A stretch of DNA of 64,000 bases from the NCBI GenBank assembly GCA_017531585.1, contig JAFXKT010000002.1, forward strand, positions 444,203 through 508,202, written 5' to 3'. Positions 39,083 to 61,943 of the stretch are shown piece by piece. Numbering within the stretch: the first letter of the stretch is position 1; each line of letters begins with the position of its first letter. A program made the position numbers and the translations under genes. The DNA comes from Candidatus Saccharimonadota bacterium. Lineage in GTDB: Bacteria; Patescibacteriota; Saccharimonadia; Saccharimonadales; Saccharimonadaceae. A model generated the notes under the pieces. It was not told the DNA's origin, searched no databases, and saw nothing but the letters and a program-made list of their open reading frames with translations.

Positions 39083-41998
39083 TTAGGCTTTCTCTAACGA
39101 GATAGTTACATTCTCGCCACCAAGCTTGATGACTTCATCGTAACTATAGTTCTCTTTTGGATCAAAGGTCGTAGCAAGCACCTCGCTCTTCAAAGTCTCA
39201 AGATGTTCTTCTGGGACTTCACAAGACACAGAGAGCTTAATCCTATCATCGACGTTTAGTCCTGCCTTCTTACGAGCGGCTTGAACAAAGCGAATTAGCT
39301 CACGGACATAACCTTCACGTTCTAGTTCTGGCGTTAGCTTCTTATCTAGGAACAATTCATCGCCATTTTCTACGGTCTTTACATTGACCTCCTCGGCAAT
39401 AATTTGCTCATAAAAGCTCTCCAGAGCCTCGCCAGCATAGCTTAAGCGGCTTAGAGGCTGACGAACCTTAATCTGACCAAACTCATCATTACGCTCCATT
39501 CTGAGGCCTAGGCCAGCCGTAATGATTTCGCGGCAGCGACCCATCTTACCAAGAAGAACAGCATCGATCTCGCCAGCTTCTGGCCAGTCCTGAAGATGTA
39601 CACTAGATACACCAACCATATTCTGCCACAATTCCTCTGCTAGGAACGGAACAAATGGCGCAATGATTAGAGCTAGATAGCTAAGTACATAATGTAAGGT
39701 TGCATATGCCTCGTTCTTATCTTTAGTCTCTTCGCTCTTGTAGAAACGGCGGCGACTGCGGCGAACGAACCAGTTAGACATATCGTCAATAAATGGCAAT
39801 ACCTCCGCTAGTGCGCTTGGCAAGTTGTATGCGCGCATATTCTCATCAATCTCGTTCCTTAGCTGATATAGTCTCGAAACGATCCATTTATCTAGCGGAT
39901 TCTCAAGTTTCTCTGGAGCCTCAAGCTTAACTTTCTTCTCGCCATTAACTTCTTCGAACTTTGGCTCGTATTCCCAACCATCTACGCTGGCATACATCGT
40001 AAAGAAGTCATAGACGTTCCAGATCATCGTAAGCTTACGAGCCGTATCAGAAACATCCTTATCTAGAAGCGCAAAGTCCTCACCTGCAAGCACTGGGCTA
40101 GATAGCAACTGGAAGCGTAAAGCATCAGCCGAGAACTTATCCATGAGCTCATTTGGATCAGTATAGTTACCGAGCGACTTACTCATCTTGCGACCATCAT
40201 TACCCGCCAAAGTACCAGTCGTAATAACGTTCTTGAAAGCCTTATCACCAAAGAGTGCGGTATTTAGCGCATGCACATAATAGAACCATGCACGAACCTG
40301 ACCGATATACTCTACGATAAAGTCAGCTGGGTAATTCTTCTCGAACTTCTCTTTATTCTCGAATGGATAATGTAGCTGAGCAAATGGCATCGAACCAGAT
40401 TCGAACCAACAGTCCAAAACCTTATCTACACGTTTAAAATGCTCGCCATCAATATCGAACTCAATCGAATCTACCCATGGGCGATGGTAATCTTCTAGGC
40501 GAACGCCAGATAGTTCATAAAGTTCATCATAAGAACCAACCACCTTAACGGTACCCTTATCGCCTTTCCATACCGGCATAGCCGTTGCCCAGAAGCGATC
40601 ACGAGAGAGGTTCCAATCTGGAGCCGCCTGAATATTCTTCTCAAAGCGACCATGCTTCAAATGTTCTGGGAACCAGTTAATTCCCTCGTTCTTCTCTAGC
40701 ATCAAAGGTTTACTGCCCTCAATATCAAAGAACCAGCTTGGAATAGCGCGATACATAATACGCTGTTTGCTGCGAGGGTTAAATGGATATTCGTGCTTAA
40801 TATATTCAATCTTCCAAATAACACCTTCGGCTTCGAGGCACTTAGCAATAAACTTATTGCCAGACCAGACCTCGATACCGTTTTCGTCAGTATCACGGAC
40901 ACCGAGCTTATGAAGCGCTTCAGCCCACTCTGGGAAGTAATAACCGTTATCGTTAATTACATGACGAACAGGAATTTTCTTCTCTTTACCAATCTTAAAG
41001 TCGTCTTCACCGTAAGCAGGGGCCGTATGAACGATACCAGTACCCTCTTCTGCGGTAACATAATCACCCGAGAACACCTTAAAGGAGTATGCGCTCTGTG
41101 ATATAATTCCGTCCACATCTTCGAACAATGGTTCGTATTCTCTGTCGACTAATTGCGCGCCATGATATACTTTCTCTGCTTTTGCATCTTCGCCAAATAG
41201 CTTCTTGGCGGCAGTTTCAGCAACGATTAGCTTAGCACCATCAACGTCATAAACACCGTAATCTAGCTTTTCGCTTACTACGAGTGCCATGTTTGCTGGC
41301 AAAGTCCAAGGGGTCGTCGTCCAAGCAAGCATATATTCGTCGCTGTCTTTTAGTTTAAACTTTACATATGCGCTCGGATCAGTAACTGTCTGGTAAGCAT
41401 CGTTATCCATAGTAACTTCTGCTTTAGAAACAGGTGTCGCGAACTTTGTATCATACATCAAGACCTTTTCGCCTTCATAAATCTTGCCTTTTTCGTAAAG
41501 TGTCTTGAACGCCCACCATACCGACTCCATGAAGTCCTTATTCATGGTGCGGTAACAATTATCCATATCTACCCAACGACCAACACGCTCAATCGTGCCA
41601 CGCCAGGCTTCAGAATTAGCCACCATCGACTTGCGAGCAGTCGTAATATAATCCTCAAGCGAAATCTTTGTGCCGATATCGCGGCGATCGGTAATACCCA
41701 TCTGCTTCTCGACAAAGTTTTCTGCTGGAAGACCATGGCAGTCCCAACCCCAGCGGCGCTCAACGCGCTTACCGTTCATTGTCCAGAAACGTGGAACAGC
41801 ATCCTTTACGACGCTAGATAGCAAGGTACCGTGATGTGGCAAGCCAGTAATAAATGGAGGCCCATCATAAAAGACATAAGAATCGTCAATATCACGTTGT
41901 TCGATCGATTTTTCGAAAGTCTTATTTTTCTTCCACCAATCGACAAGTGCTTTTTCGTACTCACTCGCACGTCGGCGTTCGCCATATTTGTACTTCAT
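39083..41998 (-). CDS. ileS: Isoleucyl-tRNA synthetase
   Basis: 971 residues. FYDGPPFITGLPHHGTLLSS is the HIGH region (here HHGT), WGWDCHGLPAENF and GRKMSKSLGNY (near 600) complete the Rossmann core, and an editing domain lies between. The C-terminal part ends with a short anticodon domain without obvious zinc cysteines. The sequence style, for example KRVERRWGWDCHGLP, resembles the eukaryote-like type of IleRS. ATG 41998 is preferred to 42004 because AAAGGA is 6 nt upstream of it. Expression is controlled by the T-box leader at 42063-42298. Confidence 0.95.
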   Translation of the reverse strand: MKYKYGERRRASEYEKALVDWWKKNKTFEKSIEQRDIDDSYVFYDGPPFITGLPHHGTLLSSVVKDAVPRFWTMNGKRVERRWGWDCHGLPAENFVEKQMGITDRRDIGTKISLEDYITTARKSMVANSEAWRGTIERVGRWVDMDNCYRTMNKDFMESVWWAFKTLYEKGKIYEGEKVLMYDTKFATPVSKAEVTMDNDAYQTVTDPSAYVKFKLKDSDEYMLAWTTTPWTLPANMALVVSEKLDYGVYDVDGAKLIVAETAAKKLFGEDAKAEKVYHGAQLVDREYEPLFEDVDGIISQSAYSFKVFSGDYVTAEEGTGIVHTAPAYGEDDFKIGKEKKIPVRHVINDNGYYFPEWAEALHKLGVRDTDENGIEVWSGNKFIAKCLEAEGVIWKIEYIKHEYPFNPRSKQRIMYRAIPSWFFDIEGSKPLMLEKNEGINWFPEHLKHGRFEKNIQAAPDWNLSRDRFWATAMPVWKGDKGTVKVVGSYDELYELSGVRLEDYHRPWVDSIEFDIDGEHFKRVDKVLDCWFESGSMPFAQLHYPFENKEKFEKNYPADFIVEYIGQVRAWFYYVHALNTALFGDKAFKNVITTGTLAGNDGRKMSKSLGNYTDPNELMDKFSADALRFQLLSSPVLAGEDFALLDKDVSDTARKLTMIWNVYDFFTMYASVDGWEYEPKFEEVNGEKKVKLEAPEKLENPLDKWIVSRLYQLRNEIDENMRAYNLPSALAEVLPFIDDMSNWFVRRSRRRFYKSEETKDKNEAYATLHYVLSYLALIIAPFVPFLAEELWQNMVGVSSVHLQDWPEAGEIDAVLLGKMGRCREIITAGLGLRMERNDEFGQIKVRQPLSRLSYAGEALESFYEQIIAEEVNVKTVENGDELFLDKKLTPELEREGYVRELIRFVQAARKKAGLNVDDRIKLSVSCEVPEEHLETLKSEVLATTFDPKENYSYDEVIKLGGENVTISLEKA

Positions 41999-42062
41999 GC
42001 ACATTCCTTTCTTTTTGCTTTAGTACTTTTTGAATGCTCGAAACTTCCTATGCTTTTTGCAT

Positions 42063-42298
42063 AAAAAATTTCCAACTTTCATTGGAACTCATTTCATACA
42101 CGCATAAATTCGTGATACTACCTGAGCGGTACCATCCAATTTCCGATTCATTAGTCTCCATGCCACCCCTTAGGGCTTTACGACAACTAATATACTCGGC
42201 ACTTATTTCTCCTCTCACGCGGGCTTACGGACAGTTCTACTCGAGACAACATCTCTTTCTTCTGTCAGCTCGTGGTTGATGGCCACTCTAACGCTTTA
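42063..42298 (-). promoter_or_regulatory. T-box riboswitch of ileS with ultrashort Stem I and AUC specifier
   Basis: Read on the minus strand. Stem I is a tiny hairpin, GTGG-CCATCAA-CCAC (42286-42272), whose 7-nt loop holds AUC (42280-42278), an isoleucine codon. A second stem GACAG...CTGTC contains AGTAGAA, an S-turn-like motif. ATTAGT...ACTAAT encloses a Stem III. The T-box TGGTACCGC is at 42134-42126. Its 5' flank ATTGGA (42140-42135) can pair with TCCAAT (42086-42081), forming an antiterminator with the UGGUACC bulge for tRNA 3' ends. The alternative is a terminator TTCCAA/TTGGAA plus TTTTTT at 42087-42063. Uncharged tRNA-Ile should allow read-through. Confidence 0.88.
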
Positions 42299-42305
42299 TA
42301 GCTAA

Positions 42306-42332
42306 ATTATATCACGTTTTTGTTATTTGCAA
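42306..42332 (-). promoter_or_regulatory. Promoter of the ileS T-box leader
   Basis: TTGCAA (42332-42327), a 15-bp spacer and TATAAT (42311-42306) with extended TGA. Confidence 0.6.
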
Positions 42333-61866: not shown

Positions 61867-61943
61867 TGGTGGGGATATGTGGACTTGAACCACAGACCTC
61901 GTCATTATCAGTGACGCGCTCTAACCAGCTGAGCTATATCCCC
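61867..61943 (-). tRNA. tRNA-Ile (anticodon GAT), CCA encoded
   Basis: 77 nt. The acceptor GGGGATA pairs with TATCCCC, with A and CCA following. D-arm AGCTCAGCTGGTTAGAGC, anticodon loop CTGATAA (GAT), T-arm GTGGTTCAAGTCCAC. This is the tRNA whose uncharged form the ileS T-box should sense. A promoter TTGCAT...TAAAAT lies at about 61955-61990. Confidence 0.97.

Follow-up and report, generated by a model that had tools for sequence, protein, structure and literature searches.

A 64,000-nucleotide stretch of the genome of a Candidatus Saccharimonadota bacterium (contig JAFXKT010000002.1, positions 444,203 to 508,202; hereafter the window) carries the gene ileS on its minus strand, and between the promoter and the coding region of this gene lies a leader with the parts of a T-box riboswitch (Table 1). 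The presence ahead of ileS of a T-box riboswitch with the ultrashort Stem I of class III is confirmed, and the sequence pieces named in a preliminary description of this DNA (a GTGG/CCAC stem, an AUC specifier, an ATTGGA/TCCAAT pairing and a terminator) are all found on the minus strand. Stem I reads, from 5' to 3', AGC-GUUA-GA-GUGG-CCAUCAA-CCAC-GA-GCU; besides its apical helix it consists of a basal AGC/GCU helix and a GA/GA kink-turn-like internal loop, and the specifier does lie in a seven-nucleotide hairpin loop, as had been proposed. The RRRxG-SIII-AA motif (as in PMC7583486) is present, with a Stem III that is enlarged in this genome, and the UGGU of the T-box bulge is complementary to the ACCA end of the isoleucine transfer RNA (tRNA-Ile), whose discriminator base is A. 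The genome's tRNA scan contains a single tRNA-Ile(GAT), located in the window itself. The ileS gene probably begins at the ATG at 41998 and not at the ATG at 42004, because the former matches the MKYKYG of the relatives and leaves approximately six nucleotides from the AAAGGA ribosome-binding site.

Table 1. Positions in the window of the parts of the ileS leader, of ileS and of the presumed tRNA ligand.
Feature	Positions	Strand	Remarks
T-box element	42300-42063	-	between promoter and ileS
Extended -10, TGa-TATAAT	42306..42314	-	from sequence; transcription start expected near 42300-42298, at the base of Stem I
Ultrashort Stem I, 29 nt	42267..42295	-	covariation; Stem I loops
GTGG-CCATCAA-CCAC	42286-42272	-	apical loop CCAUCAA of 7 nt
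Specifier AUC (ATC)	42278..42280	-	pairing expected with tRNA-Ile anticodon GAU
Stem II, GACAG/CUGUC	42230..42266	-	covariation
S-turn motif AGUAGAA	42241-42235	-	within Stem II; residues near-invariant in aligned leaders
Stem IIA/B pseudoknot	42211..42229	-	CGU/GCG; CCC with G-G-G
Purine string AAGUG	42204-42200	-
Stem III	42199-42143	-	covariation, 5/6 pairs changed on both sides
AA after Stem III	42142-42141	-
Antiterminator, whole	42081..42140	-
Helix A1, AUUGGA/UCCAAU	42140-42135 / 42086-42081	-
Helix A2, GCUCA/UGAGU	42127-42123 / 42091-42087	-	additional hairpin inside A2 loop
T-box bulge UGGUACC	42128..42134	-	between A1 and A2; invariant in 22 aligned leaders
Intrinsic terminator, UUCCAAU-GAAA-GUUGGAA-A-U6	42063..42087	-	5' arm shared with A1 and last A2 base
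Terminator hairpin, TTCCAAT-GAAA-GTTGGAA	42087-42070	-
T6 run	42068-42063	-
Ribosome-binding site AAAGGA	42010-42005	-	past the terminator
ileS	39083..42004	-	TIGR00392, 759 bits
tRNA-Ile(GAT) with CCA	61867..61943	-	presumed ligand

Searching with the Rfam T-box model RF00230, as the preliminary description had recommended, yields a match at 42300-42110 of 21.7 bits (E 0.0088, 501 nucleotides searched). This lies far below the gathering score of 93, which is a curation cut-off and not a biological feature, since the ileS T-box of Tsukamurella itself reaches only 31.9 bits; at the gathering threshold Rfam reports only tRNAs in the window. Neither the promoter nor the terminator of the leader is picked up by a generic promoter and terminator scan, because the terminator stem is too poor in G-C pairs and the spacing of the -35 is different. 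The folding z-score of the leader is -3.55. The covariance model R1, for which 22 related leaders were used and the window and its near-twin L002 left out, scores the window at 114.6 bits (E 4.5e-29). The same model matches the actinobacterial ileS leaders of Tsukamurella (L182, E 7.5e-11) and Microbacterium (L183, E 5.4e-10), which shows the window element to be homologous to that class. No hairpin followed by a T-run was seen by eye before ileS in these two leaders.

The structure is supported by compensatory change. Among 80 sampled Saccharibacteria ileS loci, 30 have an intact element upstream of the start codon, and 22 of these leaders were aligned to a hand-written structure of 36 pairs, again excluding the window and L002. 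Standard pairs fill 98.7% of the paired cells and 18 pairs are changed on both sides, a value reached by none of 500 shuffles, and sliding the partners lowers pairing to 29-38%. Compensatory changes back every helix but IIA. Within the pseudoknot, pair 102-109 changes from C-G to U-A in nine leaders and pair 100-112 is C-G in the window versus U-A in relatives. The apical helix of Stem I is GTGG/CCAC in the window and L021 and GCAG/CTGC, GCGG/CCGC or ACAG/CTGT elsewhere. Across the phylum, an alignment of 28 leaders fitted to R1 is 97.0% paired, with double changes in 30 of 33 pairs and a covariation score of 0.742 against 0.256 for shuffles. The two pairings on which the preliminary description had staked its case both covary in this set: the apical helix shows double changes in 4/4 pairs (100% of cells paired) and A1 in 5/6 (98.8%). 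A2 covaries as well.

The AUC specifier is invariant and in the same place in all aligned ileS leaders. A T-box answering to a tRNA other than tRNA-Ile(GAU) might be imagined, since the specifier frame in an apical loop can shift and the Stem I loops of valS leaders are longer; this invariance, together with the lack of any second tRNA with anticodon GAU in the genome's tRNA scan, makes such a reading scarcely credible.

The position of the promoter is revealing of the size of Stem I. Of 31 leaders, 28 show a -10 hexamer 7-13 nucleotides ahead of the Stem I GCG, and in the other three TAAACT or TAAGAT is seen by eye at the same place; in the window the distance from the end of the -10 box is 11 nucleotides. 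Because the -10 box adjoins Stem I, the transcript must start at the foot of this stem and a longer Stem I is impossible. There is thus no room in the window leader for a long Stem I with a distal elbow-binding module.

In the window and in 28 of the 30 related leaders, the 3' strand of A1 also serves as the 5' arm of a hairpin with five to seven T behind it, so that antiterminator and terminator overlap throughout this set, in keeping with the competing terminator of the preliminary description. Terminators of the relatives take the form TTCCAAT-N4-ATTGGAA-T7 or the form TCCAATGC-GAAA-GCATTGGA-T6, and in the latter the apical C-G pair is exchanged for G-C (TCCAATGG...CCATTGGA) in L035, L066 and L078. 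In all 29 terminator-bearing leaders the predicted tRNA-free fold lies below the antiterminator fold in energy.

Thus, the ileS leader is very probably a T-box through which transcription of ileS is attenuated in response to the charging state of tRNA-Ile(GAU). We infer from the sequence the tRNA binding, charging sensing, termination and readthrough that this would entail in the cell. RNA polymerase would start at the foot of the 29-nucleotide Stem I, and the anticodon of uncharged tRNA-Ile would pair with the AUC of the apical loop while the S-turn of Stem II clamped the tRNA, as crystal structures of homologues suggest. Pairing of the ACCA end with the UGGU of the bulge would then stabilize Stem III and the A1/A2 antiterminator, keeping the 3' strand UUCCAAU from the terminator and allowing ileS to be transcribed. 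Charged tRNA would be incapable of this pairing; the UUCCAAU/GUUGGAA hairpin would form and transcription would stop at the U6 run.

Several observations weigh against this interpretation. The window terminator has seven pairs, of which only two are G-C (approximately -6.6 kcal/mol); one A precedes its T-run, and the generic scan misses it, such that it is credible through its conservation in relatives and not through its own strength. The predicted gap between the two states is also small in the window, -15.9 versus -17.8 kcal/mol (a difference of about 2, computed over the leader up to the T-run). In 50 of the 80 related ileS loci no intact element is found, indicating that the T-box is dispensable in the wider group. 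Finally, the elbow-binding module has been described as generally required or essential in transcriptional T-boxes (PMC7583486, section 6.2), where it is tied to the short time window of transcription and its loss to translational control.

An alternative is that the leader is a class III T-box controlling translation initiation like its actinobacterial kin, with an incidental hairpin and T-run. The architecture equals that of the actinobacterial ileS leaders, the window terminator is weak, and two of the 30 related leaders, L069 (1207-1432) and L071 (1306-1456), lack a T-run. In these two, A1 is changed to GTTAGA/TCTAAC, which amounts to two compensated pairs, and the minimum-energy fold pairs the ribosome-binding site GGCGGGAG with the T-box region, at -29.0 versus -24.0 kcal/mol with the antisequestrator imposed in L069 and -31.0 versus -23.3 kcal/mol in L071. 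In the window, however, the ribosome-binding site AAAGGA is located past the terminator and no complement to it was found in the T-box; moreover, the hairpin and its T5-7 run sit directly on the 3' strand of A1 and are conserved with it in 28 relatives, and in 67 of 88 elements from the phylum the 5' arm of a terminator-like hairpin falls within the element. A translational role is therefore unlikely for this leader. The purely translational reading was rejected for the window on account of its conserved, A1-overlapping terminator and retained for L069 and L071, which look translational by their predicted sequestration of the ribosome-binding site. Transcriptional and translational outputs may thus both occur within one clade.

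The enlargement of Stem III and A2 and the weakening of the terminator would also fit a decaying T-box remnant, or an attenuator or terminator that acts constitutively and does not answer to tRNA in this genome, particularly as the element has disappeared altogether from some related ileS genes and one (L045) retains only a remnant. In the window, however, the specifier, S-turn, bulge, A1 and A2 are intact, the pseudoknot pairs are kept with a compensated change, and a near-identical copy of the leader occurs in L002, and we consider loss of function very improbable.

The apparent remnant in L045 (1447-1611, R1 24 bits) lies directly before ileS and comprises a Stem I hairpin that lacks the specifier, together with the 5' half of Stem II, of which AGAAAGGGAG now occupies the place expected of a ribosome-binding site. 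Among the T-box-less ileS genes (L017-L081), a -10 hexamer ends 0-14 nucleotides before an in-frame ATG in 36 of 50, 27 of them with TGn. This suggests that their messenger RNAs are leaderless, and that a leaderless start and a T-box leader are alternatives behind a similar promoter.

The leader was compared with known T-boxes. Class III, defined from actinobacterial ileS, has a short Stem I with an apical specifier and no elbow-binding module (PMC10482949). Like the ileS T-boxes of Nocardia farcinica and Mycobacterium tuberculosis (PDB 6UFM, 6UFG), the window element combines a short Stem I and an apical AUC with a Stem II S-turn, a IIA/B pseudoknot, Stem III and a UGGU bulge. Its apical loop has seven nucleotides as opposed to the five to six described for the class (PMC10482949), and unlike the actinobacterial elements, which are translational (PMC7583486), it has an intrinsic terminator overlapping A1. 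Class III and IV T-boxes are said to "mostly" regulate translation initiation (PMC10482949), and this usual, not strictly defining, trait of class III gives way to a terminator in the window and in 28 of its relatives. The sharing of the 3' strand of A1 between terminator and antiterminator is that of class I in Firmicutes (B. subtilis tyrS type; RF00230), as are Stem II, the pseudoknot, Stem III and the bulge, but the long Stem I with its elbow-binding module is absent, and the RF00230 score is remote from the gathering score. With class IV (Actinomyces ileS, intermediate Stem I) the leader shares the absence of that module and the ileS target. Judged from these sequence features, it belongs to the T-box superfamily and combines the anatomy of class III with an apparent class I output. 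The terminator coupling of an ultrashort T-box contradicts the published need for the elbow-binding module of a long Stem I, and a conserved natural RNA of approximately 240 nucleotides that combines the two makes this rule testable.

A second terminator design appears at many other loci of Saccharibacteria and of the Candidate Phyla Radiation (CPR). Here the 5' arm is formed by the loop and 3' strand of Stem III, not by A1, and the hairpin pairs with sequence after A1, enclosing the entire antiterminator; in L104, for example, AAGCACTTCTTTTAGA pairs with TCTAAAAGAAGTGCTT-T4. From this overlap, such a terminator would compete with Stem III. The design is found in L088, L089, L091, L094-L097, L104, L109-L111, L116, L121, L129, L138 and L142, in sequences that differ between lineages. 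A hairpin shuffle test (100 shuffles per locus, p at most 0.02, uncorrected for 110 loci) was passed by 19 loci with the Stem III design and 29 with the A1 design. When hairpins are simply counted across the 88 elements of the phylum, 31 are of the A1 type and 36 of the Stem III type, a few of which are likely due to chance.

The preliminary description had presented a terminator-coupled T-box in a CPR genome as an unusual combination; the coupling stands, whereas the isolated case has become a family that extends across the CPR and covers several amino acids. A survey of 380 genomes of the GTDB phylum (E 0.01 or better) gave R1 matches in 86; within the window's class, 31 of 37 genomes match. 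Downstream genes, assigned by NCBIfam or by close likeness to NCBIfam-assigned ones, are ileS in most cases. Specifiers were taken from the Stem I loop of R1, except in L156 and L164, where they were read by eye. Unlike actinobacterial ileS class III, the CPR members also serve valine (valS, specifier GUC, 10 loci), aspartate or asparagine (non-discriminating aspS, GAC in L114 and L123; the asparagine codon AAC in place of the aspartate codon GAC in L124 and L151), threonine (thrS, ACC in L131, L159, L161 and L171), tyrosine (tyrS, UAC in L126), lysine (lysS, AAG in L125) and arginine (argS, CGC in L166). The leuS leader of L162 has no recognisable leucine specifier in its Stem I loop. The specifier fits the downstream gene in 21 of these 22 non-ileS cases, an agreement that is not built into R1, which was trained on AUC.

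RF00230 finds matches at E 0.01 or better in 132 of the 380 genomes but above its cut-off in just 13, and in 14 of 20 loci sampled from the phylum its E-values lie between 1e-8 and 0.02; Rfam thresholds thus hide nearly all such T-boxes in this phylum. The search of the T-box database for its translational class covered Actinobacteria and, in addition, class I hits whose Stem I is truncated (PMC7778990), and no paper on T-boxes in Saccharibacteria, Patescibacteria or CPR was found in the openly searchable literature, although earlier mention is possible in subscription journals. On balance it appears probable that the CPR hold a large, mostly unannotated class of transcription-acting ultrashort-Stem-I T-boxes with several amino-acid specificities and two terminator designs, one competing with A1 and the other with Stem III. 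If so, the elbow-binding module would not be needed for co-transcriptional tRNA sensing. The conserved elements also indicate that host-dependent bacteria with genomes of approximately 1 Mb retain sensors of tRNA charging.

Three further observations concern individual loci. The CPR T-boxes that exceed the Rfam gathering score (L172-L181) span approximately 210-300 nucleotides, and longer T-boxes may therefore occur in the phylum alongside ultrashort ones. At G178:C3:25376-25700, two RF00230 matches on one strand, separated by about 30 nucleotides, are possible tandem T-boxes of a CPR genome. A sub-threshold match to the hammerhead type III ribozyme (37.4 bits, E 1.8e-4, gathering score 48.5) lies at L114:61-115.
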